Below, one piece after another: positions 13,635 through 30,843 of a stretch of 64,000 nucleotides of DNA; positions within the stretch are counted from its first letter, which is position 1, and every line of letters begins with the position of its first letter. Under the pieces are notes generated by a model. The model worked only from the letters and a program-made list of their open reading frames with translations, did not search any database and was not told the origin of the DNA. The stretch comes from Nocardioides coralli (lineage in GTDB: Bacteria > Actinomycetota > Actinomycetes > Propionibacteriales > Nocardioidaceae): NCBI RefSeq assembly GCF_019880385.1, contig NZ_CP082273.1, forward strand, positions 2,480,001 through 2,544,000. Direction: 5' to 3'. The position numbers were made by a program, and so were the translations under genes.

Positions 13635-14405
13635 TCAGCCCCCGGGAAGCGTGACCACCTGACCGACGAGGTAGCCCGCCAGAGCGAGCTCCACACAGGC
13701 GCCGAGCACGTCGCCGGTGACGCCGCCGACCCGCGCCCGGGCCCGGTGGAGCACGACGCCGGCGAGGGCTGCTGCCAGGACCACCCCCACCACCCCGTGC
13801 CCGCCGTCGACGAGGACCGCCGCGGCACCCACTACGGCGACCACACCGACCGCGGCAGTGCGCGGCACCGCCCCCGCCACGGCGCTGCCCAGGCCACCAG
13901 CCCGCGCCGCGGGGACGCCGCGCACGCACGCCGCGGCCAGCGACGCCCGGCTGACGACGACGGCCAGCCCGGCCGTCAGCGCCGCCCGCCCGCCGTACGC
14001 CGACACGACCCCGGCCAGCGCCGCGACCTGGACGAGCAGCACGAGCACCAGCGTGGCGGCGCCCACCGGCCCGACGTCGCCGGTGCGCATCACCGTGAGC
14101 CGCCGCTCACGGTCGCCGGGCACGCTCAGCCCGTCGGCGGTGTCCGCCAGCCCGTCGAGGTGCAGGCCCCCGGAGCCCAGCCCGAGCAGCGACACCGCAA
14201 CGGCCGCGGTCAGCAGCGGGGGCGCCTGCAGGGCGTCGCCCAGCCAGACGGCGGCCCCGGTCACCACGGCCAGCGGCAGCACCGCGACCGGTGCCAGCAC
14301 CATCGCCACGCCGGGGCGGGCGCCGTCCAGGCTCCGAGGCGGCGCCACCGGCAGCACGGTCAGCGTGCCGACCGCCAGCCGGAGCGCGTCGCCGGCCACG
14401 CTCAC
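13635..14405 (-). CDS. cobS: Adenosylcobinamide-GDP ribazoletransferase
   Basis: CobS joins adenosylcobinamide-GDP with alpha-ribazole in the last steps of cobalamin synthesis and is an integral membrane enzyme. The 256-aa protein is mostly hydrophobic helices and carries the family motif GGLHLDGLADTADGL followed by RTGDVGPVG. The GTG start at 14405 overlaps the cobT stop (GTGA), which decides the start. It is the last gene of the riboswitch-controlled leftward operon. Confidence 0.92.
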   Translation of the reverse strand: MSVAGDALRLAVGTLTVLPVAPPRSLDGARPGVAMVLAPVAVLPLAVVTGAAVWLGDALQAPPLLTAAVAVSLLGLGSGGLHLDGLADTADGLSVPGDRERRLTVMRTGDVGPVGAATLVLVLLVQVAALAGVVSAYGGRAALTAGLAVVVSRASLAAACVRGVPAARAGGLGSAVAGAVPRTAAVGVVAVVGAAAVLVDGGHGVVGVVLAAALAGVVLHRARARVGGVTGDVLGACVELALAGYLVGQVVTLPGG

Positions 14406-15448
14406 CGCGGCACCGGCACCGGGTCCGTGACGGCGTGCAGCGTCGCCATGTCCGACAGCAGCGTGGCGGCGACCCGGAGCAGGGGCAGTGCGGTCAGCGC
14501 ACCGCTGGCCTCGCCCAGCCGCAGCTCGAGGTCGAGCAGCGGCTGCAGGCGCAGCGACTCCAGGGCCCGCCGGTGAGCGGGCTCGGTGGAGCGGTGACCC
14601 GCGCACCACCAGCCGACGGAGCCTGGTGACAGCCGCTCGGCCAGCAGGGCGCAGGCGCCCGAGACCACGCCGTCGAGCAGCACCGGGGTGCCCCGTTCCG
14701 CGGCCCGCACCAGCAGGGCCGTGGCTGCGGCAAGGTCGGCGCTGCCGATGGAGCGCAGCAGGGCCACCGGGTCGTCGCGGTGGGGTTCGGCGCGCCCGAT
14801 GGCCGCCGCGACGACGTCGCGCTTGGCGCGCCAGGTCGCGTCGTCGACACCGGTGCCGCGCCCGACCACGAGGTCGGCGTCGAGGCCGAGCACCGCCCCC
14901 ACGAGGGCGGCCGCGACCGTGGTGTTGCCGATCCCCATGTCACCCGGGACCAGCAGGTCCGCGCCGGCGTCGATCTCCTCGTCGGCCACCGTCCGGCCCA
15001 CCCGCAGCGCGGCCTCGAGCTCGGTGCCGGTCAGCGCGTCCTCGCGGTGGATCGCCCCCGACCCGCGGTGCACCTTGTGCCGGCGTACCTCCTCGGGGGT
15101 GTCGGCCAGGTCGTCGTCGACCGCGACGTCCAGCACCCGCACCCGTGCCCCGTGGGCGCGCGCCAGGACGTTGACCGCAGCGCCGCCGCGCAGGAACTCG
15201 CGCACCATCGCAGCCGTCACCTGGCGGGGGTACGCCGAGACGGGCCCGTCGGCAGTGACGCCGTGGTCACCGGCGAGCACCACCACCGCCACGTCACGAG
15301 GGGGGTGCGGCGTCGCGGTGCCCTGCACCCCGGCCAGCCAGACCATGAGGCCCTCAAGTCGCCCCAGCGCGCCGCCCGGCTTGGCCAGCGCGTCCACGCG
15401 GTCACGCGCCTGTGCCCTGGCCACCTCGTCGATCCTCGCCGCGCTCAC
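14402..15448 (-). CDS. cobT: Nicotinate-nucleotide-dimethylbenzimidazole phosphoribosyltransferase
   Basis: CobT makes alpha-ribazole phosphate from dimethylbenzimidazole and nicotinate mononucleotide. The 348-aa protein contains KPGGALGRLE, VLAGDHGVTADGPVSAYP, the GDMGIGNTTVAAAL glycine-rich motif and LDGVVSGACALLAE, all typical of CobT. The usual catalytic glutamate region lies near the C-terminus (LRLGEASGALTALPLL). The GTG start at 15448 overlaps the cobU stop. No bluB or cobC-like phosphatase gene lies next to it. Confidence 0.94.
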   Translation of the reverse strand: MSAARIDEVARAQARDRVDALAKPGGALGRLEGLMVWLAGVQGTATPHPPRDVAVVVLAGDHGVTADGPVSAYPRQVTAAMVREFLRGGAAVNVLARAHGARVRVLDVAVDDDLADTPEEVRRHKVHRGSGAIHREDALTGTELEAALRVGRTVADEEIDAGADLLVPGDMGIGNTTVAAALVGAVLGLDADLVVGRGTGVDDATWRAKRDVVAAAIGRAEPHRDDPVALLRSIGSADLAAATALLVRAAERGTPVLLDGVVSGACALLAERLSPGSVGWWCAGHRSTEPAHRRALESLRLQPLLDLELRLGEASGALTALPLLRVAATLLSDMATLHAVTDPVPVPR

Positions 15449-16050
15449 GCCCGTTCCCCTTCCAGTCGGTGCACCCGCCCGGCGACCACCAGGCGGACGT
15501 CGTCGGACAGGTCCGCGACCTGCAGGTTGAGCCGGCCCAGGGCGTCGCGGAAGAGCACACCCGACCGGGTGCCCGGCACCACGCCGGAGCCGACCTCGTT
15601 GCTCACCGCCACGACCGGGACGCCGCAGCCCCGCCACGCCCGGAGCAGTCGTGCGACCTCCTCCTCGAGGTCCGCCCGCCACTCCGCGTCGCCGTCGGCC
15701 GAGTCCCAGGCGCCGACCGCCTCCATGGTGGCGGCGAGCCACGTGGCCAGGCAGTCGACGAGCACCGGGACCGTCGCGGTCTCCAGCGCACCGGCGAGGT
15801 CACGCGTCTCCAGCGTCGTCCAGCCCTGGGGACGGGTACGCCGGTGCTCGGCGACCCGCTCGGCCCAGTCGCGGTCGCGGCCGTCGGGGACGGGCCCCGG
15901 CGCGACGTACAGGACGGCGTCGTGGTCGGCGAGCAGCCGTTGTGCGTGGCGCGACTTGCCGGAGCGGGCCCCACCCAGCACCAGGGTGCGGGGCGGCAGC
16001 CCGCGACGCCGCCGGCCGAGCACGCCGAGCAGGGAGCCGACGCCGGTCAT
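15445..16050 (-). CDS. cobU: Adenosylcobinamide kinase/guanylyltransferase
   Basis: CobU phosphorylates adenosylcobinamide and transfers GMP to it. The 201-aa protein has an early P-loop GGARSGKS (26-33), the second motif DCLATWLAATM, and NEVGSGVVP followed by RDALGRLN, all characteristic. Length is normal, with about 20 basic residues ahead of the P-loop. The ATG overlaps the preceding ATPase stop (ATGA). Together with CobT and CobS it forms the nucleotide-loop assembly pathway, which serves either de novo synthesis or salvage of imported corrinoids. Confidence 0.94.
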   Translation of the reverse strand: MTGVGSLLGVLGRRRRGLPPRTLVLGGARSGKSRHAQRLLADHDAVLYVAPGPVPDGRDRDWAERVAEHRRTRPQGWTTLETRDLAGALETATVPVLVDCLATWLAATMEAVGAWDSADGDAEWRADLEEEVARLLRAWRGCGVPVVAVSNEVGSGVVPGTRSGVLFRDALGRLNLQVADLSDDVRLVVAGRVHRLEGERA

Positions 16051-16838
16051 CGCGGACCCCGCACCGGCAGCACCGCCGGCCCGGTCTCCCGGGACAGCAC
16101 CTCGACCCGGGCGCCGTAGACCTCGGCGAGCCGGGCCGGCTCCAGCACCTCGCCGGGTGCGGCGTCGGCCACGACCCGGCCACGGTCGAGCAGCACGACC
16201 CGCCGGCCGTACTGACCGGCCAGGGTCAGGTCGTGCATCGCGGCGACGACGGTCAGCTCGTCCTGCAGCCGCATCGTGTCGACGAGGTCGAGGACCCCCT
16301 GCTGGTGGCCGATGTCGAGCGCACTGGTGGGTTCGTCGAGGAGCAGCACGTGCGGCTCCTGTGCCAGCGCCCGGGCCAGCACGACACGCTGCAGCTCCCC
16401 GCCGGAGAGGCCGGCGGCCGGGCGGTCGGCGAAGTCGACCAGGTCCAGGCGCCGCAGGGTGCGGGCCACGGCGTCACGGTCGGTCGCCGTCTCCGTCGCG
16501 AACCGGCCCAGGTGGGGCGTACGGCCGAGCGCGACCAGCTCCCGGACGCTGATCCCCTCGGGCACCACGGGCCGCTGCGGCATCAGCGCCACCACCCGCG
16601 CGACGCGACGGCGCGAGGCGTGGCCGGGGTCGATGCCGCCGATCCGGAGCCGGCCGGACGCGGGCAGCAGGCCCGCCACGGCCAGCAGCAGCGAGGTCTT
16701 GCCGGCGCCGTTGGGACCCACGACAGCGACCCAGTCACCCGGGTCGACCGCCAGGTCGACGTCGGTGACGACCCGGACGCCACCGCGGTCCACGGACACC
16801 CCCCGGCACTCGACGGCCGGCGCCGCGCCGCGCGTCAC
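16047..16838 (-). CDS. btuD: Corrinoid/iron-type ABC transporter ATP-binding protein
   Basis: This 263-aa ATPase of the FecE/BtuD family has Walker A GPNGAGKTS (41-49), signature LSGGELQRV, Walker B VLLLDEPTSALD and an H-loop His in AAMHDLTLAGQ. Its position between a FecCD-type permease and cobU, under a cobalamin riboswitch, points to vitamin B12 or corrinoid import rather than siderophore uptake. The GTG start at 16838 overlaps the permease stop (GTGA). Confidence 0.9.
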   Translation of the reverse strand: MTRGAAPAVECRGVSVDRGGVRVVTDVDLAVDPGDWVAVVGPNGAGKTSLLLAVAGLLPASGRLRIGGIDPGHASRRRVARVVALMPQRPVVPEGISVRELVALGRTPHLGRFATETATDRDAVARTLRRLDLVDFADRPAAGLSGGELQRVVLARALAQEPHVLLLDEPTSALDIGHQQGVLDLVDTMRLQDELTVVAAMHDLTLAGQYGRRVVLLDRGRVVADAAPGEVLEPARLAEVYGARVEVLSRETGPAVLPVRGPR

Positions 16839-17932
16839 AGCGTGCCCCGGTGGCGTCGCAGGACCACGAGGAAGAAGGGTGCCCCGACGAGGGCGGTGAC
16901 GACCCCGATCGGCACCTCGCTGGGCGCGAGCGCGGTCCGGGCGACCACGTCGGCGAGCACGAGGAACGCAGCCCCGAGCAACAGCGCCAGGGGCAGCAGG
17001 GTGTGGTGGGCAGCACCGAAGAGCAGCCGGACGGCGTGCGGCACCACGATGCCGACGAACCCGATCAGGCCGGACACGCTGACCACCGCGGCCGTGCCGA
17101 GGGTCGCCGTCACCACCAGCACCAGGCGGACCCGCGCAGGGTCGACCCCGAGACTGGCCGCCTCCACGTCACCCACCGCCATCACGTCGAGCACCCGCCG
17201 GTGGACCAGGATCACGGCGCAGGACACCACGACGTACGGCAGCGCGATGACGACGTCGGACCAGCCGTCGGTGCTGAGCCGCCCCAGCATCCACGAGTAG
17301 ACCGACAGCAGCGAGTCGTCGTACTGCTGCTGGACGAAGTTCTGGATCGCGTTGAAGAACGCCCCGACCGCCACCCCGGCCAGCACGATGACCACGGCGC
17401 CACGACCGGCGCCGACGGTGCTGCCGAGGGCGTACGTCGCGGCGACCCCGAGCAGGCCGCCGACGAAGGCGAGCAGCGGGATGCCGACCGGGCCCACGCC
17501 GCCGCCGGCGACGATCCCGACGGTCGCCCCGAGACCGGCCCCGCTGGAGATGCCCAGCAGGTAGGGATCGGCCAGGGGGTTGCGGAAGACCCCCTGGTAG
17601 GCGGTGCCGGCCGCCGCGAGCATCGCGCCGACCAGCACCCCCAGCACGACACGGGGCAACCGGATCTCCCAGAAGATGGCCTGCTGGGTGAGGGTCATGC
17701 CGGAGTCGACCTCGACGCCGGGAACGGCGTCGACCAGCTCCAGCAGGACGCCTCGCACCCCGAGCCCGGCCGGTCCGACGAGGCACCCGACGAGGACCGC
17801 ACCCAGGCAGACCACGGCGCCCAGGCCGACCTTGGTCCACCGCAGGTGCGGCCGCGCGGCCAGCCGCCGCAGGGCGCGTGCCCGCGCCGCCGCGGCCGCG
17901 CCGCCCCGCTCCCCCGTCAGGTCGAGTGCCAC
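16835..17932 (-). CDS. btuC: Corrinoid-type ABC transporter permease (FecCD family)
   Basis: This 365-aa membrane protein of about ten helices has family landmarks IRLPRVVLGVLVGAMLAAAGTAYQ, the NPLADPYLLGISSGAG loop and, near the C-terminus, GLIGFVGIVVPHAVRLLFG. It partners with the ATPase (4-bp overlap downstream) and the binding protein (6-bp gap upstream). The corrinoid assignment rests on the riboswitch and on the cob genes in the same operon. Confidence 0.9.
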   Translation of the reverse strand: MALDLTGERGGAAAAARARALRRLAARPHLRWTKVGLGAVVCLGAVLVGCLVGPAGLGVRGVLLELVDAVPGVEVDSGMTLTQQAIFWEIRLPRVVLGVLVGAMLAAAGTAYQGVFRNPLADPYLLGISSGAGLGATVGIVAGGGVGPVGIPLLAFVGGLLGVAATYALGSTVGAGRGAVVIVLAGVAVGAFFNAIQNFVQQQYDDSLLSVYSWMLGRLSTDGWSDVVIALPYVVVSCAVILVHRRVLDVMAVGDVEAASLGVDPARVRLVLVVTATLGTAAVVSVSGLIGFVGIVVPHAVRLLFGAAHHTLLPLALLLGAAFLVLADVVARTALAPSEVPIGVVTALVGAPFFLVVLRRHRGTL

Positions 17933-17938
17933 GGTGGG

Positions 17939-18934
17939 TCAGCCCCCCGAACCCTCGAGCTGCTCCTCACGCTCGACCAGGATGTCGCTCACCTGCTCGA
18001 CGAAGTCGACCACGCGGGGTCCCCAGCGGCTGGCGACGTCCTCGTCCACGACGTGCACCTGCCCGTCCGACACGGCGCTCATCTGCCGCCAGCCCGGGCG
18101 CTTGGCGACGTCCTTGACCTTGACGCCGCAGCACTGGCTGTCGGCGAGGAAGACCAGGTCGGGGTCGGCCTCGACGATGAACTCGTCGTTCAGCTGCGGG
18201 TAGAGGTCGCCGGTCTTCGACGTGTCGGCGATGTTCTCCAGTCCGAACAGGCCGTATACCTCACCGATGAACGTCTCGCCGGACGCGGTGTAGTAGTCGG
18301 TGGACAGCTCGTGGAAGTACGTCGTCCCCGTGGCATCGGGCGCGGCCGCCAGGGCATCCTCGATGTCCTGCCTCAGCTCGCCGACGGCCTCCTCAGCCTC
18401 CTCGGCGTGCCCGGTGGCGGCGCCGATGCGCTCGAGCTGGGAGTAGGACTCCTCCAGGTCGGCGGCCGCCGGCAGCAGCAGGGTCGGCACCCGCGCCTTC
18501 TCGAGGTTGGCGACCAGGTCACCGGTGTCGTCGGCCGCGATCACCAGGTCGGGCTCGTACTCCAGGATCGCCTCGACGTTCGGCTCGTAGCCCGACAGCT
18601 TGGTCCTCGGCGCCTCGTCGGGGTAGTCGGACTGGTCGTCGACGGCGACGACCTGGTCACCCGCACCCACCTCGAACAGCATCTCGGTGGCCGTCGGGCT
18701 CAGCGAGATGATCGACACGGGCTCGGACTCGATCGTGACCTCGTCGCCGCCGCCCACCGGGCCCGAGAGGACCTCGACGGGGAACTCCGCGTCGGCGTTC
18801 TCGGTGCCCTCGGGGGCAGCGGCCTCGTCGACGGTGTCGACGCCACCGCAGCCGGCCACGAGCGCGACCACGAGCAGCAGGAGCACGGACAGGGGGGCGC
18901 GCGCTCGAGAGCGCACAGAGATGTTCGGGTGCAC
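17939..18934 (-). CDS. btuF: Corrinoid ABC transporter substrate-binding lipoprotein
   Basis: This 331-aa precursor has a signal sequence and lipobox ALVAGC (Cys29), then an acidic linker and a TroA-fold binding domain. The domain starts at VSIISLSPTATEMLFEVGAGDQVVAV and includes a LADSQCCGVKV segment and the RPGW region seen in BtuF-like proteins. It captures the corrinoid outside the membrane and delivers it to BtuC. The GTG at 18934 is chosen because GGAGG lies 5 nt upstream, inside a hairpin, downstream of a cobalamin riboswitch. Longer upstream starts would run through the riboswitch. Confidence 0.9.
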   Translation of the reverse strand: MHPNISVRSRARAPLSVLLLLVVALVAGCGGVDTVDEAAAPEGTENADAEFPVEVLSGPVGGGDEVTIESEPVSIISLSPTATEMLFEVGAGDQVVAVDDQSDYPDEAPRTKLSGYEPNVEAILEYEPDLVIAADDTGDLVANLEKARVPTLLLPAAADLEESYSQLERIGAATGHAEEAEEAVGELRQDIEDALAAAPDATGTTYFHELSTDYYTASGETFIGEVYGLFGLENIADTSKTGDLYPQLNDEFIVEADPDLVFLADSQCCGVKVKDVAKRPGWRQMSAVSDGQVHVVDEDVASRWGPRVVDFVEQVSDILVEREEQLEGSGG

Positions 18935-18938
18935 AGCA

Positions 18939-18958
18939 TCCTCCGGTCTGCCGGAGGA
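18939..18958 (-). promoter_or_regulatory. Shine-Dalgarno-sequestering hairpin of btuF
   Basis: A perfect 8-bp stem (TCCTCCGG/CCGGAGGA) with a 4-nt loop lies directly upstream of the btuF GTG. The 3' arm contains the GGAGG ribosome-binding site. This is a simple expression platform for translational control by the riboswitch at 19021-19167: when the stem forms, the start site is hidden. Confidence 0.7.
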
Positions 18959-19020
18959 CGAAAGTCGTCGGGCCGCACGCGCCACGAGGGCCGTTGCCGC
19001 ACGAACTATCCTTCGTCCGA

Positions 19021-19167
19021 GGCTAGTTGCGTGGCCACGGGCCAGGTGACCTGGCTCGTCCGGCCTCGCGGCCGGCTTCACAGTTGCGGGACAGCACCGG
19101 GATTGCACCGGACTTCACTGAGCGCCGTGGCACCCCCGCGTGGGGCGGAGGCAGGAGCACTCTAACC
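19021..19167 (-). ncRNA. Cobalamin (B12) riboswitch aptamer
   Basis: On the minus strand the RNA has a closing P1 helix GGTTAG (19162-19167) with CTAGCC (19021-19026). It also has the conserved core GTGAAGTCCGGTGCAATCCC followed by GCTGTCCCGCAACTGTGAAGC, and the B12 box region AGCCAGGTCACCTGGCC. These are the diagnostic elements of the adenosylcobalamin riboswitch. It controls btuFCD-cobUTS, 87 nt upstream of the btuF start. Confidence 0.95.
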
Positions 19168-19194
19168 CAGCCCCACGTCCCCTCCCCGCCCGCC

Positions 19195-19208
19195 TAGGGT
19201 TCGTCCGG
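19195..19208 (+). promoter_or_regulatory. Leaderless -10 element for cobQ
   Basis: TAGGGT (19195-19200) and 7 nt precede the GTG start of cobQ. The surrounding CCTAGGGTTC is identical to that before the antiporter gene at 57091. It implies that cobQ has no riboswitch leader of its own. Confidence 0.5.
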
Positions 19209-20701
19209 TGAGCGGAAGCCTGATGGTCCTCGGCACCACCTCGGACGCCGGCAAGACGGTCCTCACGACCGGGCTCTGCCGCGTGCTCGCCCGCCGCGGC
19301 GTACGCGTGGCCCCGTTCAAGGCGCAGAACATGTCCAACAACTCGATGGTCACCGCCGACGGGGCCGAGATCGGGCGGGCGCAGTGGGTCCAGGCCCTGG
19401 CGGCCGGGGTCGAGCCGGAGGCTGCCATGAACCCCGTCCTGCTCAAGCCGGGGAGCGACCGCCGCAGCCACGTCGTGGTCAACGGAGCACCGGCAGGCGA
19501 CCTGCGAGCCGACGAGTTCGCGGGTCGCCGGGCGGACCTCGCCGGCGCGGCGTACGCCGCCTTCGACGACCTGCGTGGCCGCTTCGACGTCGTCGTGTGC
19601 GAGGGAGCGGGCAGCCCCGCCGAGATCAACCTGCGCGCCTGGGACTACGTCAACCTCGGGCTGGCCCGGCGCACAGGGACGCCCGCGCTCCTCGTCGGTG
19701 ACATCGACCGCGGCGGCGTCTTCGCGGCGCTCCACGGGACGCTCGCCCTGCTCGAGGCCGCCGACCAGGCCCTCGTCGCGGGGCTCGTCGTCAACAAGTT
19801 CCGAGGCGACCCGGGGCTCCTCGTCCCGGCCCTCGGCGACATCCACGCGCTCACGGGCCGGCCGGTGCTCGGCGTACTGCCGTGGCTCGACGGGTTGTGG
19901 CTCGACTCCGAGGACTCGCTCGCCGTCGAGGAGCGGGCGGCCGCGACCGACCCGGCTCGGACCCGGCTCCGGGTGGCCGTCGTCCGCCTCCCCCGGATCA
20001 GCAACCTCACCGACGTCGACGCCCTCGCGCTGGAGCCGGAGCTGGAGGTCAGCTTCGTCGCGGACCCGCGGTCGGTGCGCTCGGCCGACGTGGTCGTCCT
20101 GCCGGGGACCCGGGCGACGATCGCCGACCTGGCCTGGCTGCGGGAGCGAGGCCTCGACGCCGCCGTCGTGGAACACGCCCGCCGGGGTCTACCTGTGCTC
20201 GGCATCTGCGGCGGCTACCAGATGCTGGGACGGACGATCGTCGACCCGGAGGGAGTGGAGGGGCCGGCGGGTGCCGCCGCCGACGGGCTGTCGCTCCTGG
20301 ACGTGGTGACCACGTTCGGGGTCGACAAGGTCGTGGCGACGACCTCCGGCTCGGCATCGGGCGTGCCGGTGGCCGGCTACGAGATCCACTACGGGCGCGT
20401 GGCGGTCGCCGCCGGCGACCCCTTCCCCGGCGGCGTACGAACGGGCTCGGTGGCGGGCACGCTGTGGCACGGCTGCCTGGAGGGGGATGAGTTCCGCGGT
20501 GCCTGGCTGCGCGAGGCGGCGGCGCAGGTCGGGACGACCGTCGCGACGGGCAACGTGTCGTTCGCGGCCGCCCGTGATCGGCGGATCGACGCCATCGCCG
20601 ACGCCGTGGAGGCCCACCTCGACGTCGACGCCGTGCTACGGCTGGTCGAGCACGGCCCGCCCGGAGACCTCTCACCCGTCCGCGGTGGGCTCGTCCCCTG
20701 A
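19208..20701 (+). CDS. cobQ: Cobyric acid synthase
   Basis: CobQ amidates four side chains of adenosylcobyrinic diamide using glutamine and ATP. The 497-aa protein has an N-terminal P-loop-like GTTSDAGKT (9-17), FKAQNMSNNSMVT, the CEGAGSPAEINLR and VGDIDRGGVFA segments, and a C-terminal class-I-like glutamine amidotransferase domain with Cys334 in GICGGYQMLG and His421 in LWHGCLEG. It is divergent from the riboswitch operon and appears leaderless. No neighbouring cbiA/cobB is present. Confidence 0.95.
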   Translation: MSGSLMVLGTTSDAGKTVLTTGLCRVLARRGVRVAPFKAQNMSNNSMVTADGAEIGRAQWVQALAAGVEPEAAMNPVLLKPGSDRRSHVVVNGAPAGDLRADEFAGRRADLAGAAYAAFDDLRGRFDVVVCEGAGSPAEINLRAWDYVNLGLARRTGTPALLVGDIDRGGVFAALHGTLALLEAADQALVAGLVVNKFRGDPGLLVPALGDIHALTGRPVLGVLPWLDGLWLDSEDSLAVEERAAATDPARTRLRVAVVRLPRISNLTDVDALALEPELEVSFVADPRSVRSADVVVLPGTRATIADLAWLRERGLDAAVVEHARRGLPVLGICGGYQMLGRTIVDPEGVEGPAGAAADGLSLLDVVTTFGVDKVVATTSGSASGVPVAGYEIHYGRVAVAAGDPFPGGVRTGSVAGTLWHGCLEGDEFRGAWLREAAAQVGTTVATGNVSFAAARDRRIDAIADAVEAHLDVDAVLRLVEHGPPGDLSPVRGGLVP

Positions 20702-24366: not shown

Positions 24367-25901
24367 GATGCGGCTCCGCTCCGGGCGAGCAGGTCGAGGT
24401 CGGGGGCCTGGTCGAGCAGCGACCCGCCCCAGCGGTCGGTGAGCAGCCGCTCGAGCGCCGCACCGACGCGGTAGACGCGGTCGTCGGCCAGGGCCGGGGC
24501 CAGCACCTGCACCCCGGTCGGGAGACCGTCCTCGTCCGCGAGCCCACCCGGCACCGAGATGCCGGGGACGCCGGAGAGGTTGGCGGGGATCGTGGCGAGG
24601 TCGTTGAGGTACATCGCCAGCGGGTCGTCGAGCTTCTCCCCGAGCGGGAACGCCGTCGTGGGCGCCGTGGGCGACACGAGCACGTCGGCCTTCTCGAAGG
24701 CCGCCTCGAAGTCGCGCGACACCAGGGTCCGCACCTTCTGCGCCTGGCCGTAGTACGCGTCGTAGTAGCCGCTCGAGAGCGCATAGGTGCCGAGGATGAT
24801 CCGACGCTTCACCTCGTCGCCGAACCCAGCGTCGCGGGTCGCGCGCATCACCTCCTCCGCGCTGGGGTCACCCTCGGGGACGACCCGGAGGCCGTAGCGC
24901 ATGGCGTCGAACTTGGCGAGGTTGCTCGACGCCTCGGCCGGCAGGATCAGGTAGTAGGTGGCGAGCGCGTGGACGAAGTGCGGGCACGACACCTCCACCA
25001 CCTCGGCGCCCGCGTCGACCATCAGGTCGACGGACTCGCGGAAGCGCGCCAGCACCCCGGACTGGTAGCCCTCGCCGCCCAGCTCGGTGACGACCCCGAC
25101 GCGGACCCCGGTGAGGTCCCCGGTGCTGCCGCGCCGCACGGCGTCGACGAGCGCGGGCACCGGCTGGTCGATGCTGGTCGAGTCGAGCGGGTCGTGGCCG
25201 CCGATCACCTCGTGGAGCATCGCCGCGTCGAGCACGGTGCGCGTGACGGGTCCGGCCTGGTCGAGGGAGTTGGCGAGCGCGACCAGCCCGTAACGGGACA
25301 CGCCGCCGTACGTCGGCTTCACGCCGACCGTCCCGGTGACCGCGCCGGGCTGGCGGATCGAGCCGCCGGTGTCGGTGCCGATCGCCAGCGGCGCCTCGAA
25401 GGCGGCCACCGCCGCGGCCGAGCCGCCGCCGGAGCCGCCCGGGATCCGGCTGAGGTCCCAGGGGTTGCGGGTGGGCCCGTACGCCGAGTGCTCGGTCGAG
25501 GAGCCCATCGCGAACTCGTCCATGTTGGTCTTGCCCAGCAGGGGCAGTCCTGCCTCACGCAGGCGCCGCACGACCGTGGCGTCGTAGGGCGGCACCCAGC
25601 CCTCGAGGATGCGTGAGCCGCACGTCGTCGGCATGCCGCGGGTCGCCATCACGTCCTTGACCGCGATGGGCACCCCGTCGAGCGGGGAGCGCAGGCCGCC
25701 GGCCTCGCGGCGCTGGTCGGAGTCCTCCGCGGCCGCCAGAGCGCCCTCGGCGTCGACGTGGAGGAACGCGTGGACCGCGCCGTCCACGGCCTCGATCCGG
25801 TCGAGCTGCGCACGGGTCAGCTCCACGCTCGTGACCTCGCCCTCGGCGAGCGCCGTCGCCTGCTCGGCGGCGGTGCTGCGGGTCCAGTCGGGGGCGCTCA
25901 C
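24363..25901 (-). CDS. gatA: Aspartyl/glutamyl-tRNA(Asn/Gln) amidotransferase subunit A
   Basis: This 512-aa amidase-signature enzyme releases ammonia from glutamine for GatB. The Ser-cisSer-Lys triad is visible: Lys82 (PIAVKDVM), Ser157 (GGSGGGSA) and Ser181 (DTGGSIRQP). Length is typical. The GTG start at 25901 overlaps the gatC stop (GTGA), which fixes the start. Confidence 0.97.
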
Positions 25902-26212
25902 TGCTCCTCCCCCAGGATGCGGGGGACGCTGAAGCGCTGCTCCTCGGCCTCGGGCGCGCCGCTCAACGCCTCCTCCGGGGTGAGTCCCGGGGTGACCACG
26001 TCGTCGCGGAAGACGTTGGTCAGCGGTACCGGGTGGGAGGTGGGGGGCACGTCGTCCCCGGCGACGCCCTGGATGGAGGCGATGGAGTCGAGGATGACGC
26101 CCAGCTGGGGTGCGAGGTGGTCGAGCTCGGCGTCGGAGAGGTCGATCCGGGCGAGGTCGGCGAGGTGGGCGACCTGCTCCCGGGTGAGCGACGCTCCGGG
26201 GGTGTCAGACAT
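25898..26212 (-). CDS. gatC: Aspartyl/glutamyl-tRNA(Asn/Gln) amidotransferase subunit C
   Basis: This 104-aa protein stabilises the GatA-GatB complex. It shows [23 protein letters not shown] at the N-terminus, the ILDSIASIQ helix and the VFRDD...[23 protein letters not shown] tail typical of GatC. The ATG at 26212 is preferred over one at 26221 because a TAGGAT -10 box lies exactly 7 nt upstream of it. The gatCAB operon reads leftward. Confidence 0.95.
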
Positions 26213-26225
26213 GGCCGCCATCCTA
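26212..26225 (-). promoter_or_regulatory. Leaderless -10 element for gatC
   Basis: Minus strand: TAGGAT (26220-26225) and 7 nt precede the gatC ATG. An alternative ATG at 26221 would lie inside the hexamer, arguing against it. Confidence 0.45.
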
Positions 26226-26425: not shown

Positions 26426-27760
26426 ATGACCGCCGTCAGGGAGCGCCAGGCGCGCCTGCTCGCCGACCCCCGGTCGGCCGAGCCGCGGGCCCGGCTCGCC
26501 CAGGCGATGACACGGTCGGACTTCCTGCTCCGGCTCTCGCGCACCACGGCCGCGCTGCAGAACCCGCACCGGGCCCTGGCGGGCCTCACCACTCTCCTGG
26601 TCGACGAGCTGGTCGACGTGGCGCTGGTGTCGGTGCACACGGGGTCCCACGAGACGGTGTGCACCGCGGTGCGGGACCAGCCGTCCGCCACCGCCACCCG
26701 GCTGCTCGCCGACGGCGGCCGCGCCTACCGCGAGGCCATCCGCACCGGCGTCGCCGAGGAGGTCGTCGTCCCCAGCGGGGGCCCCGGCCAGCTCCGGGTG
26801 CTCCGCGAGTGGCTGGGCGACGAGGACGTCGTGGCGGCCGTCGACACCCTCGGCGTCGAGCTGTTGACGATCCGGCCGCTGACGGCACGCGGCCACACCT
26901 TCGGGGTGCTCGTCCTCGCCCGGGGCTCGGGGCAGGGCTTCCACGGCTCCTGGACCTTCGTCGACGAGCTCACCGAGCGCGTCGCCAGCGGGCTCGACGC
27001 GGTGCTGCTGGTCGCCGAGACGCGGTACGTCGCCGGCGTGCTGCGGCGGGCGCTCGAGCCGCAGGAGATGCCACAGCTGCCCGGGCTCGACCTCGCCAGC
27101 TTCTACCGCGTGGCCCGTCAGTCCGAACGGGTCGGCGGGGACTTCGTCGACGTCCACGCCCACCAACCCGACGACACGGTGCTGGTGCTGGGCGACGTCG
27201 CCGGGAAGGGCGTGGAGGCCGCGGTGCACGCGCAGCGGATCCGCAACGCCGTCCACACCGCCAGTCACGTCGACCGCTCGCCGGGGAGCATCCTCGCGCT
27301 CGTCAACCGGGTGCTGCTCGCCGAGGCGGGCCCCGTGGACGAATCACTGGCGACAGCCGTGTGCGCCCGTGCCCGGCCCGTGGCCGAGGGCCTGCGGGTC
27401 GACCTAGCCAACGCCGGTCACGTGCCCCCGGTGGTGCTGCGCGCCGCCGGCTCCGTCGAGGTCACGGGCGACGCCGACCCGATGCTGGCGCTCGACCCCG
27501 ACGCGAGCTACGACGACCGGACCGTGGTGCTGGGGCACGGCGACACGCTGCTCCTCTACACCGACGGGGTGACCGAGGCGCCGGGCACCACCGACCGCTT
27601 CGGCGAGGACCGACTCGTCGAGCAGCTGACCGGGCTCGGCGGCACCGTCGCCTCCGCGGTGGTGGAGTCGGTCGCGGTCGCCGTCTCGGAGCACCTCGCC
27701 GACCGGCACCACGACGACATGGCCATGCTCGCCATCCGCTACGTGGGTGGGGACCGGTGA
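26426..27760 (+). CDS. GAF-SpoIIE (PP2C-type) serine phosphatase
   Basis: This 444-aa protein has a GAF-like sensor (about 45-195) followed by a SpoIIE/RsbU-type phosphatase domain (about 215-440). Metal-binding motifs are VGGDFVDV (Asp239), GDVAGKGVEAA (Asp257), YTDGVTEA and the C-terminal DDMAML. RsbU-type enzymes dephosphorylate STAS anti-anti-sigma factors in partner-switching stress pathways. No STAS or anti-sigma gene is adjacent, so the target would lie elsewhere. AGGAG lies 5 nt before the ATG. Its stop overlaps the start of a B12-binding protein (GTGA), so the two are made together and probably act together. Confidence 0.88.
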   Translation: MTAVRERQARLLADPRSAEPRARLAQAMTRSDFLLRLSRTTAALQNPHRALAGLTTLLVDELVDVALVSVHTGSHETVCTAVRDQPSATATRLLADGGRAYREAIRTGVAEEVVVPSGGPGQLRVLREWLGDEDVVAAVDTLGVELLTIRPLTARGHTFGVLVLARGSGQGFHGSWTFVDELTERVASGLDAVLLVAETRYVAGVLRRALEPQEMPQLPGLDLASFYRVARQSERVGGDFVDVHAHQPDDTVLVLGDVAGKGVEAAVHAQRIRNAVHTASHVDRSPGSILALVNRVLLAEAGPVDESLATAVCARARPVAEGLRVDLANAGHVPPVVLRAAGSVEVTGDADPMLALDPDASYDDRTVVLGHGDTLLLYTDGVTEAPGTTDRFGEDRLVEQLTGLGGTVASAVVESVAVAVSEHLADRHHDDMAMLAIRYVGGDR

Positions 27761-28764
27761 GCACGGAGGTCGTACACCCCGACGAGGTGGAGTCCTACTG
27801 GGCGGCGGTGCGCGGCACCGACCTCGAGGGCGCGGCCGCGGTGGCCGAGGCCGTCTACCGGCGTACGTCGTCGGTGGAGGCGGTGCTCCAGGGCCTGGTC
27901 GTGGAGAGCCAGCAGCGGGTGGGGTCGCTGTGGGCGCACGGTGAGTGGACGGTCGCCGACGAGCACGCCGCCACCGCCATCAACGAGGTGGTCGCCCACC
28001 GGATCGGGCTCCACGTCCCCGGCCCCCAGACGGGGCCGTTGCTGCTGGTGTCGTGCGTGGAGCGGGAGTGGCACGCGCTTCCCGCGCTGGTCGTGACGCT
28101 GGTGATGCGGGCACGCGGCTGGCGTACCGAGCTGCTGGGTGCCAACACCTCGCGTGACGAGCTGGTGGACCGGATCCTCGACCAGGGTCCGCGCGCCGTC
28201 CTGCTGAGCGCGTCGCTGGCCTCCTCGCTCCCGCGGACACGGCGTCAGGTGGAGGCCGTGCGGGGCACCGGCACCCCGGTCGTCGTCGGCGGCCGGGCCT
28301 TCGACGCCGCGGGTCGGCGGGCCGAGCGGATCGGGGCGTCGGCGCACGCGACCGGTCCCGCCGAGGCCGCCGCCCGGCTCGACGCCCTGCCACACCACGT
28401 GCCACCGGCACCCCCGCTCCGCGACGCCGCTGCCCGTGAGGCCGCCGACCTCCAGGCCAGGACCGGCGACGTCGTACGCCGGGTGATGCTCGTCACCTTC
28501 GCCACCCTCGACCTGCCCCCCGAGGAGCACGCACCCGACCTGTGGTCCGGGGTGCTGGCGGGGTTCCTCCCCCACGTCGTCGACGGCGTGGTGGGTGCCC
28601 TGGTCACCGACGACCCGACGGTGGTGGCGGAGACCCGCAGCTGGCTGGTCGAGGTGCTCGGCGCCCGCCTGGCGGACCCCCGTGCGCTCGACGCGCTGTG
28701 GGGAGCCCTCGAGCACGAGCTGCGCGACTACCCCGAGGTCACGCGGCTGCTCGCCTCCGCCTGA
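27757..28764 (+). CDS. Cobalamin-binding photosensor-like protein without DNA-binding domain
   Basis: This 335-aa protein has an N-terminal four-helix B12 cap domain (about 10-85) and a Rossmann B12-binding domain (about 92-200). The cap carries the W-x9-E-H pattern of CarH/LitR photoreceptors: Trp59, Val66, Glu69 and His70. The Rossmann part has EREWHALP with His106 as the probable lower axial ligand; the usual Gly of E/DxHxxG is Pro here. The spacing Trp to His (47) is close to the 46 I recall for Thermus CarH. It lacks the MerR helix-turn-helix of CarH. The C-terminal about 110 residues, helical with conserved-looking Trp, Pro and Asp, are not recognised. It is coupled to the SpoIIE phosphatase by a 4-bp overlap. 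A B12-based light or corrinoid sensor is inferred. Confidence 0.8.
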   Translation: MSTEVVHPDEVESYWAAVRGTDLEGAAAVAEAVYRRTSSVEAVLQGLVVESQQRVGSLWAHGEWTVADEHAATAINEVVAHRIGLHVPGPQTGPLLLVSCVEREWHALPALVVTLVMRARGWRTELLGANTSRDELVDRILDQGPRAVLLSASLASSLPRTRRQVEAVRGTGTPVVVGGRAFDAAGRRAERIGASAHATGPAEAAARLDALPHHVPPAPPLRDAAAREAADLQARTGDVVRRVMLVTFATLDLPPEEHAPDLWSGVLAGFLPHVVDGVVGALVTDDPTVVAETRSWLVEVLGARLADPRALDALWGALEHELRDYPEVTRLLASA

Positions 28765-28827: not shown

Positions 28828-28840
28828 TATTCTCTCCGCG
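28828..28840 (+). promoter_or_regulatory. Leaderless -10 element for the acyltransferase gene
   Basis: TATTCT (28828-28833), 6 nt, then the GTG start at 28840. No Shine-Dalgarno is present, which supports both leaderless transcription and the GTG start. Confidence 0.5.
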
Positions 28841-30843
28841 TGCCCTGGTCCTACCGCCCCGCCCTCGACGGGCTCCGGACGGTGGCGGTCTATGCCGTGC
28901 TGCTGTTCCACACCGGGCACCCCTGGGCCCTCGGCGGCTTCGTCGGGGTCGACCTGTTCTTCGTCCTCTCCGGCTTCCTCGTCACGAGCGTGCTGCTCTC
29001 GGAGATCGACCGCACCGGCACGCTCAAGGTCGGCATGTTCTACACCCGGCGCGTGCGGCGGCTGCTCCCGGCAGCCGTCGTCGCGATCGTCGCCACCTGT
29101 GCGGTGTTCGTGCTCGTCACACCGGTCACGGAGCGGGTCGAGCTGGTCCGGGACGCCCAGAGCGCCCTGCTCTACGTCGCCAACTGGCACTTCCTCGTCG
29201 AGTCGGGCGACTACTTCGCGACCGACGTGGACCGCAGCCCGTTCCTCCACTTCTGGTCGCTGGCGATCGAGGAGCAGTTCTACCTGCTGTTCCCGCTGGT
29301 GCTGCTTGGCCTGACCCGGACCGGACGCCGCGTCACCGTCGCGGTGCTGGCTGCGCTGATGCTCGCCTCGGTGGGCGCCCAGCTGGTGTGGGCGCAGGTC
29401 GACCCCACGCACGCCTACTACGGCACCGACGCCCGCATCTACCAGCCGCTCGCGGGTGCGGTCCTCGCGCTCGTGGTGCACCGGTTGCCCGTCGGCGGAG
29501 GACGTCGCTGGGGCCTGGCCGCGACCGCGGGCCTGGCCCTCTTCCTCCTGCTCAGCAGCGGCCTGCTCGACATCGCGCCGTCCTGGCGCGGGCTCGCGGC
29601 CACGGTGGCGGCGGTGACCGTCGTCGCGGCCGTGAGCGTCGCCGAGGGCGGCCGGGTGGCGCAGGTCCTCGCCCAGCCGGTCCTGGTGTTCCTCGGCAAG
29701 ATCTCCTACGGCACCTACCTGTGGCACTGGCCGGTGATCCTGGTCCTGCAGGAGGTCTTCGCCACCAGCCCGCGGGTCGTCGCCGTCCTCACCGTCGCCC
29801 TCAGCACCGGGCTCGCGGCCCTGTCCTACGAGGTGCTGGAGAAGCCGATCCGCACCGCCTCCCTGCTGGACCGCCTGCGCTGGACGCCGGCAGTGGCCGG
29901 TGTCGCGGTCAGCGCCCTCCTGGCCTTCACCCTCGTACCGGGACTGCTGACACTGGACCGCAAGCCGGCCCTCGCGGCCGAGTCGGAGCGACCGCGGGCC
30001 CTGCCCACACAGCAAACGGTGGAGATCCCCGACGACGTCGACTGGGACAGCGTCGTCAAGGACCACGGCGAGATCGGCACCTGCGCGCCTGACGAGCCCG
30101 AGGCCTGCATCGAGGTCGAGGGCTCCGGACCGCACCTGCTCCTCGTCGGCGACAGCCAGGCCCAGTCCCTGGTGCCGATGTTCCGCAAGCTCGCCGAGGA
30201 GCACGACTTCACCCTGTCGATCAACGTCGTCCCGGGATGCCTGTGGCAGGAGGAGCTGGACAACGCGGACCTCTCCGACGGCAACCGGCAGCGCTGTGAG
30301 AAGGCGCGGGTCGGCTGGTACGACGAGGCGCTGCCCGAGCTCGAGCCGGACGTGGTCGTGCTGATGACCCGGCCTCGCGACAACGAGAAGGTCTTCGGTG
30401 AGGCAGTCTCCCGGCGCGACGGCAAGCAGATGCCGCTGGACACCATGACGCTGCGCGCCTCGCGGTCCACGCTGCGGACGCTGGAGAAGCTGGTGCCGCA
30501 GACGCTCATCGTCAACAGGATCGTCATGCCCGAGACGTTCGACCCGGCCGACTGCCTCACCACGGAGGAGAAGCCGACGAGGTGCGCCGTCCCGGTGCCG
30601 GTGGGGGGCACCGAGAGCGACAGCTTCGCCGAGACCCTGGCGACCGCCTCGGACAAGGTCGAGGTCCTCGACCTCAACCCGGCGTTCTGCCCCGGCGCGC
30701 CGGTGTGCATGCCGGTGGTGGGCGACGAGGTGGTCTGGCGCGACGACCACCACGTCACCGCGTCCTTCGCGACCGCCCGGCGCGACGTCGTCTGGGAGAT
30801 CCTCAACCGCTACGCCCCGTTCGGCTCCCAGGGCGGGGCCTGA
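28840..30843 (+). CDS. OafA/YrhL-type acyltransferase with C-terminal SGNH domain
   Basis: This 667-aa membrane enzyme has an N-terminal acyltransferase-3 domain (about 1-350, roughly ten helices) starting YRPALDGLRTVAVYAVLLFH. It also has FVGVDLFFVLSGFL, the R-x-x-R of TRRVRRLLPA and a HFWSLAIEEQFYL motif. After a linker, an extracytoplasmic SGNH domain (about 430-660) shows VGDSQAQS with Ser439 and a terminal DDHH (Asp635-His638). Such fusions O-acetylate cell-wall glycans or exopolysaccharides. The acceptor is unknown. It converges with ligA across a 50-bp gap. Confidence 0.92.
   Translation: MPWSYRPALDGLRTVAVYAVLLFHTGHPWALGGFVGVDLFFVLSGFLVTSVLLSEIDRTGTLKVGMFYTRRVRRLLPAAVVAIVATCAVFVLVTPVTERVELVRDAQSALLYVANWHFLVESGDYFATDVDRSPFLHFWSLAIEEQFYLLFPLVLLGLTRTGRRVTVAVLAALMLASVGAQLVWAQVDPTHAYYGTDARIYQPLAGAVLALVVHRLPVGGGRRWGLAATAGLALFLLLSSGLLDIAPSWRGLAATVAAVTVVAAVSVAEGGRVAQVLAQPVLVFLGKISYGTYLWHWPVILVLQEVFATSPRVVAVLTVALSTGLAALSYEVLEKPIRTASLLDRLRWTPAVAGVAVSALLAFTLVPGLLTLDRKPALAAESERPRALPTQQTVEIPDDVDWDSVVKDHGEIGTCAPDEPEACIEVEGSGPHLLLVGDSQAQSLVPMFRKLAEEHDFTLSINVVPGCLWQEELDNADLSDGNRQRCEKARVGWYDEALPELEPDVVVLMTRPRDNEKVFGEAVSRRDGKQMPLDTMTLRASRSTLRTLEKLVPQTLIVNRIVMPETFDPADCLTTEEKPTRCAVPVPVGGTESDSFAETLATASDKVEVLDLNPAFCPGAPVCMPVVGDEVVWRDDHHVTASFATARRDVVWEILNRYAPFGSQGGA

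Follow-up and report, generated by a model that had tools for sequence, protein, structure and literature searches.

A conserved gene pair in Nocardioides coralli encoding a SpoIIE-type phosphatase and a photocobilin, a probable light input to sigma-factor control

We analysed a stretch of 64,000 nucleotides from Nocardioides coralli (contig NZ_CP082273.1, positions 2,480,001 to 2,544,000; hereafter the window, with positions counted from its first letter), in which two overlapping genes encode a SpoIIE-type serine phosphatase (gene A) and a standalone photocobilin (gene B). The source genome is a single contig of 3.53 Mb, and the closest named relatives of gene B are from Nocardioides. The two genes share four bases (GTGA, 27757-27760), in agreement with the coordinates and the 4-bp overlap given in an earlier note made from the sequence alone. 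The features of the pair are the following:

26426..27760, plus strand: gene A, GAF-like/SpoIIE (PPM) serine phosphatase of 444 amino acids (Pfam SpoIIE, 5.6e-38)
26513..27016, plus strand: GAF-like sensor region in gene A, with approximate limits placed by alignment
27167..27742, plus strand: SpoIIE/PPM catalytic domain, residues 248-439 of gene A (Pfam SpoIIE)
27757..28764, plus strand: gene B, photocobilin of 335 amino acids with a GTG start (sequence and structure matches to 8j2w, 8j2x and 8j2y)
27796..27981, plus strand: B12-binding four-helix region of gene B (B12-binding_2), holding W59 and E69-H70 (Pfam, 1e-7)
28042..28371, plus strand: B12-binding Rossmann domain of gene B with E104-x-H106 (Pfam, 3.6e-16)
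28426..28758, plus strand: photoglobin (bilin-type globin) domain of gene B, residues about 224-334, with F270 and W296 (sequence and structure comparison)

The sequence of gene A identifies it as a SpoIIE/RsbU-type phosphatase whose N-terminal part is GAF-like. Its PPM/SpoIIE domain contains the full set of aspartates (D239, D257, D380, D430 and D431), which we take to bind metal and which are invariant among 33 aligned gene A sequences. The SpoIIE half of the GAF-SpoIIE assignment in the earlier note thus stands; of the 33 aligned sequences, Pfam assigns a GAF domain to 25, though not to the window's own copy. A search of the PDB by sequence gave Rv1364c (3ke6; 1.2e-15) as the nearest solved relative of the phosphatase domain; Rv1364c differs in that phosphatase, anti-sigma and anti-anti-sigma domains are fused in one protein (PMC12143880), whereas gene A has no such fusion.

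Sequence and structure model agree that gene B is a standalone photocobilin. The four-helix and Rossmann B12 domains are followed by a C-terminal globin, the architecture of photocobilins over their whole length, and the model aligns with the photocobilin structures from residue 4 to residue 335. The C-terminal 110 residues, previously regarded as an unknown output or docking part, therefore correspond to the bilin-type globin domain of photocobilins. Photoglobins are also regarded as homologues of the RsbR globin, which belongs to environmental stress signalling (PMC10151467). In gene B, Pfam finds B12-binding_2 and B12-binding and no DNA-binding domain, as had been noted before.

Trp59, Val66, Glu69, His70 and His106, listed in the earlier note as a CarH/LitR-like set, are all present in gene B and conserved in its family: W59, E69 and H106 are invariant, and H70 and V66 are retained in at least 90%, of a 63-sequence alignment. 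In the numbering of SasPcob from Saccharothrix syringae, which we anchored on residues named in PMC10979010, W59, E69, H70 and H106 correspond to Trp61, Glu71, His72 and His108, and these are kept in 108, 108, 106 and 108 of 109 aligned sequences, respectively. That the EH pair hardly varies is partly built in, given that the scan yielding most relatives used EHAATA as one of two patterns, that the in-genus rows of the 109-sequence alignment were chosen by the W-x9-EH pattern, and that L038, L042 and L045, which lack EH, were left out. Both motifs of light-dependent B12 domains are present (W59 with E69-H70, and E104-x-H106), and the GxxH motif (PMC11796333) reads R103-x-x-H106, differing in its first letter. 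Gene B is accordingly predicted from these residues to bind adenosylcobalamin (AdoCbl) through W59, E69-H70 and H106, the last of which would, by homology, be the lower axial ligand. The residue following the pocket Trp is Ala60 in gene B, Gln in SasPcob and His132 in TtCarH, where we assume it to be the light-state ligand; His61 of gene B is not retained among relatives. The light state of SasPcob is ligated by water or hydroxide and is not bis-His (PMC10979010); since gene B has Ala at the His132 site, and SasPcob has Gln there, a SasPcob-like light state would be expected and a CarH-type bis-His state appears unlikely.

The two genes co-occur widely, a pattern that the earlier note had proposed to look for. 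A scan of genome contigs gave 244 confirmed loci, of which the best 80 were analysed, with a photocobilin gene called in 79 (L081 and L082 look identical over the stretches compared, so that the locus counts are slightly inflated). Among the 77 of these best 80 loci with a full-length photocobilin and more than 1.3 kb of upstream sequence, SpoIIE is the next upstream gene on the same strand in 69; in 66 of the 69 the genes lie within 50 bases of each other, in 52 they overlap, and in 38 they overlap by exactly 4 bases.

Components of a partner-switching pathway surround the pair in relatives. The gene directly after the photocobilin encodes a STAS protein in 34 of the 79 loci (Pfam confirmed STAS in 33 of the 33 scanned), and ATPase genes of one cluster occur at varying positions in 23 of the 79, all four scanned members matching HATPase_c_2. 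Five of six Actinokineospora loci (L059, L064, L067, L072 and L073) have the order ATPase, sigma factor, WhiB, STAS, ATPase, SpoIIE, photocobilin, STAS, with WhiB on the opposite strand (domains checked in L059, and for the first two genes in L064 too). In the loci so checked, the sigma factors pass the SigB/SigF/SigG cut-off, and RsbW models match the first ATPase with scores short of their cut-offs. The source genome itself encodes three SpoIIE proteins in all, single STAS proteins at 267004 and 1190029, and two sigma factors that pass the SigB/SigF/SigG cut-off, one of which (1148246-1149058) adjoins an RsbW-like protein (1149060-1149467).

Computation showed here what kind of protein each gene encodes, that the pair and the B12 photo-pocket are conserved, and that STAS, RsbW-like and sigma-factor genes lie nearby in relatives; from these we infer the light response, the contact between the two proteins, the direction of control and the target. 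The explanation that we favour, with reasonable though not high confidence, is that a light-sensing B12 photocobilin controls a co-made SpoIIE phosphatase upstream of a SigB/F/G-type sigma factor. Genes A and B would be co-produced from one operon; green light would cleave the cobalt-carbon bond in gene B, which would change in shape or oligomerisation; by touching the GAF/linker region it would then switch the phosphatase of gene A, which would dephosphorylate a STAS anti-anti-sigma protein; and this protein, once dephosphorylated, would bind an RsbW-type anti-sigma kinase, so that the SigB/F/G-type sigma factor is released. The proposal of the earlier note that light or corrinoids feed into partner switching has hereby gained strong comparative support from the conserved pair and the clustered genes in relatives.

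Known systems offer precedents for the light-gated contact. In AbDPcob, whose photocobilin part is 8j2y, a photocobilin fold with His at the Asp270 site and weak biliverdin binding is fused to a diguanylate cyclase, and light activates this output enzyme, lifting turnover more than 10-fold (PMC10979010); the putative output of gene B is instead a separate SpoIIE phosphatase. SasPcob (8j2w, 8j2x) resembles gene B in being standalone, of near length, and in its fold, B12 pocket and C-terminal globin, at about 34% identity, and it acts on that foreign cyclase in trans (PMC10979010). PPM phosphatases are proposed to be controlled via coiled-coil linkers by exchangeable sensor domains that are common to cyclases (PMC12143880). 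RsbQ and RsbP of Bacillus subtilis (PMC3183031) likewise come from neighbouring genes, one encoding a sensor partner and the other a PPM phosphatase with a sensor domain, and control a sigma factor, but RsbQ is a hydrolase serving energy stress, and RsbP has a PAS rather than a GAF domain. Because of the action in trans on a cyclase, the linker-controlled phosphatases and the RsbQ-RsbP precedent, control of gene A by gene B through such a contact seems a reasonable expectation.

The earlier note knew of no described system of exactly this form, but the family has been described and the link between the partners has in part been predicted in the literature: photocobilins were characterised in 2024, and SpoIIE, STAS and PP2C-like partners of SasPcob were predicted from a network (PMC10979010). 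In the literature covered on B12 photoreceptors with SpoIIE or anti-sigma partners and on light-regulated RsbU-type phosphatases, only that paper ties photocobilins to SpoIIE (the photoglobin paper of Schneider et al. 2022 lay outside this coverage), and according to it what standalone photocobilins do is less clear than for fused ones. The present analysis adds how widely the gene pair occurs, the partner-switching genes around it in Actinokineospora, and the substitution of Asp270 in the window's branch. Conservation of the pair over many actinobacterial genera points to a concrete partner, the SpoIIE phosphatase, and to a pathway of STAS, RsbW and sigma factor; the pairing probably lets light control a stress response, and if so, many actinobacteria would link visible light to a stress-type sigma factor via vitamin B12.

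Several observations weigh against this explanation. SpoIIE lies upstream in only 19 of the 30 best in-genus photocobilin loci, and L018 (G070:C1:1062207-1063205) keeps the photocobilin together with the gatC- and ligA-like flanks also present in the window, with SpoIIE absent, an apparent loss of the partner at a syntenic site; a photocobilin can thus persist without SpoIIE. A search with the joined pair, with scoring confined to the 8000 best candidates by shared words, revealed no genuine SpoIIE-photocobilin fusion. (Two apparent fusions of SpoIIE and B12 domains, P0123 and P0124, are read as frameshift or contig artefacts, since residue by residue an arginine-rich stretch unlike the SpoIIE C-terminus stands in its place.) The STAS and anti-sigma neighbours of relatives have no counterpart in the 64-kb window, where no STAS or HATPase_c_2 match was found, and the RsbW-like protein encoded elsewhere in the source genome reaches neither the Pfam nor the NCBIfam cut-off; one of the six Actinokineospora loci, L115, has no member of the ATPase cluster within reach. 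Finally, when SasPcob carried AdoCbl alone, with no biliverdin, the cyclase was activated in the dark and inhibited under light, opposite to the effect of the holo form (PMC10979010). As the sign of control in SasPcob depends on biliverdin, the direction is not fixed for gene B, which is possibly biliverdin-free.

The state of the biliverdin site bears on a variant of the favoured explanation, in which biliverdin, supplied externally or by an enzyme outside PF01126, joins AdoCbl in a two-chromophore photocobilin sensing red and green light. The globin fold and the biliverdin contact W296 (present in every one of the 109 aligned sequences) are retained in gene B. The main biliverdin ligand of SasPcob, Asp270 (PMC10979010), is Phe270 in gene B, in an alignment free of gaps up to Trp296, and His137, which contacts biliverdin across the SasPcob dimer, aligns with Glu. 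Asp fills column 270 in 54 of the 109 sequences; SpoIIE-linked members from Nocardioides mostly have Phe, Tyr, His or Gln there. Its replacement concerns biliverdin binding and not membership of the photocobilins, because the accepted member AbPcob also lacks Asp270; with His there, AbPcob retains some biliverdin binding and a red-light response (PMC10979010).

No heme oxygenase was found in the source genome with PF01126, which matches in 112 of the 215 genomes of the genus and in none of the other 103. Among 60 species with a SpoIIE-linked photocobilin, heme oxygenase occurs in 24 of 31 with Asp270 and in 14 of 29 with other residues (Fisher p = 0.03, where kinship of species makes p values overstate the association; the count leaves out eight duplicate species, judged by eye, loci without an upstream SpoIIE, and 23 of 73 loci). 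By residue, it occurs with F in 0 of 2, Y in 0 of 2, H in 1 of 6, A in 1 of 5, Q in 6 of 8 and V in 6 of 6, so that 9 of the 10 species of the F/Y/H270 type have none, vs. 103 of 215 in the genus. That heme oxygenase simply tracks Asp270 is contradicted by the V and Q types, which lack Asp270 and mostly have the enzyme, and by a split among three in-genus Asp270-type genomes (present in G180, none in G075 and G179). We regard the two-chromophore variant as unlikely. With Asp270 replaced by Phe and no canonical heme oxygenase found, gene B is probably a B12-only (green/blue) sensor or a weak bilin binder like AbPcob. That one branch lacks Asp270 suggests that evolution may be able to separate the B12 half of photocobilins from the bilin half. 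A fuller proposal, that the widespread SpoIIE-photocobilin(-STAS) operon is an actinobacterial light input to SigB/F/G-type partner switching whose Nocardioides branch, represented by the window, has given up the bilin antenna, is B12-only and has a SasPcob-like rather than a CarH-like light state, is put forward tentatively.

A second alternative is that occupancy by AdoCbl, rather than its photolysis, sets phosphatase activity, gene B being a corrinoid-level sensor. The activity of AbDPcob does differ between the apo and AdoCbl-bound forms (PMC10979010), and the gene pair lies about 6-13 kb from corrinoid genes:

13635-20701: genes for corrinoid import and the nucleotide loop (CobS, DBI_PRT, CobU, an ABC transporter with FecCD and a binding protein, and a CobQ-like gene)

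The transporter's binding-protein gene (17939-18886) lies 7.5 kb from the pair, close to the 8 kb first noted for the import genes. Together with a PduO-type adenosyltransferase encoded in the same genome, these genes suggest that AdoCbl can be made in the host. The adenosyl-facing Trp and the EH set of light-responsive domains are, however, retained across the aligned family, and by eye no family for B12 synthesis or import is among the neighbour families present in at least five loci (6 kb on each side), which makes a corrinoid-level sensor improbable.

Gene B might also be co-transcribed with gene A without contacting it, and act on another target, e.g., a cyclase or a metabolic enzyme, as the action of SasPcob on a foreign cyclase might suggest (PMC10979010). 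Photocobilins do occur without adjacent SpoIIE, in 8 of the 77 loci (six Nocardioides, two Streptomyces) and in 11 of the 30 in-genus loci (nine of a paralog group, L018, and L025, which has no SpoIIE within its 4-kb stretch). Against this, the genes overlap and the pair is co-retained over many genera; the distance matrices of A and B also correlate (Mantel r = 0.94, 67 pairs), which carries little weight given that shared ancestry of the species would by itself make r high. We consider the absence of contact a distinctly improbable reading. The paralog group is a second, photocobilin-like Nocardioides gene without SpoIIE beside it (L031, L034, L035, L037, L038 and L042-L045, and also L056, L057, L061, L063, L075 and L106). 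Its neighbours resemble a zinc-type dehydrogenase, a metallo-beta-lactamase-fold protein and a methyltransferase-like gene, with groES/groEL where flanks suffice, and in some members the photo-motif no longer has its EH (e.g., L038, L042, L045, L063 and L075).

A CarH/LitR-type transcription regulator with an overlooked DNA-binding domain is hardly credible and, as an identity for gene B, is rejected because of its domains and fold: the B12 domain is CarH-like, with the W-x9-EH pocket and lower-ligand His, but the MerR-type DNA-binding domain is absent, the photocobilin alignment leaves no room for one, a globin domain is added, Ala60 replaces His132 of TtCarH, and the NCBIfam CarH model matches residues 17-195 with 62 bits vs. 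a cut-off of 400. A MerR-B12 (CarH/LitR-like) protein with the W-x9-EH motif and without an E/D-x-H match is encoded elsewhere in the same genome (L136:3005-3901; genome 2826004-2826900).

The pair is flanked by the following genes, with ligA further out beyond gene B (gatC and ligA being named from their sequence):

25898-26221, strand opposite to the gene pair: gatC, on the gene A side
28840-30843: AT3/SGNH acyltransferase gene, beyond gene B

In addition, a MEDS-STAS gene lies beside a MEDS-ATPase gene (L133:4782-6418; genome 1909781-1911417), possibly a further anti-sigma pair.
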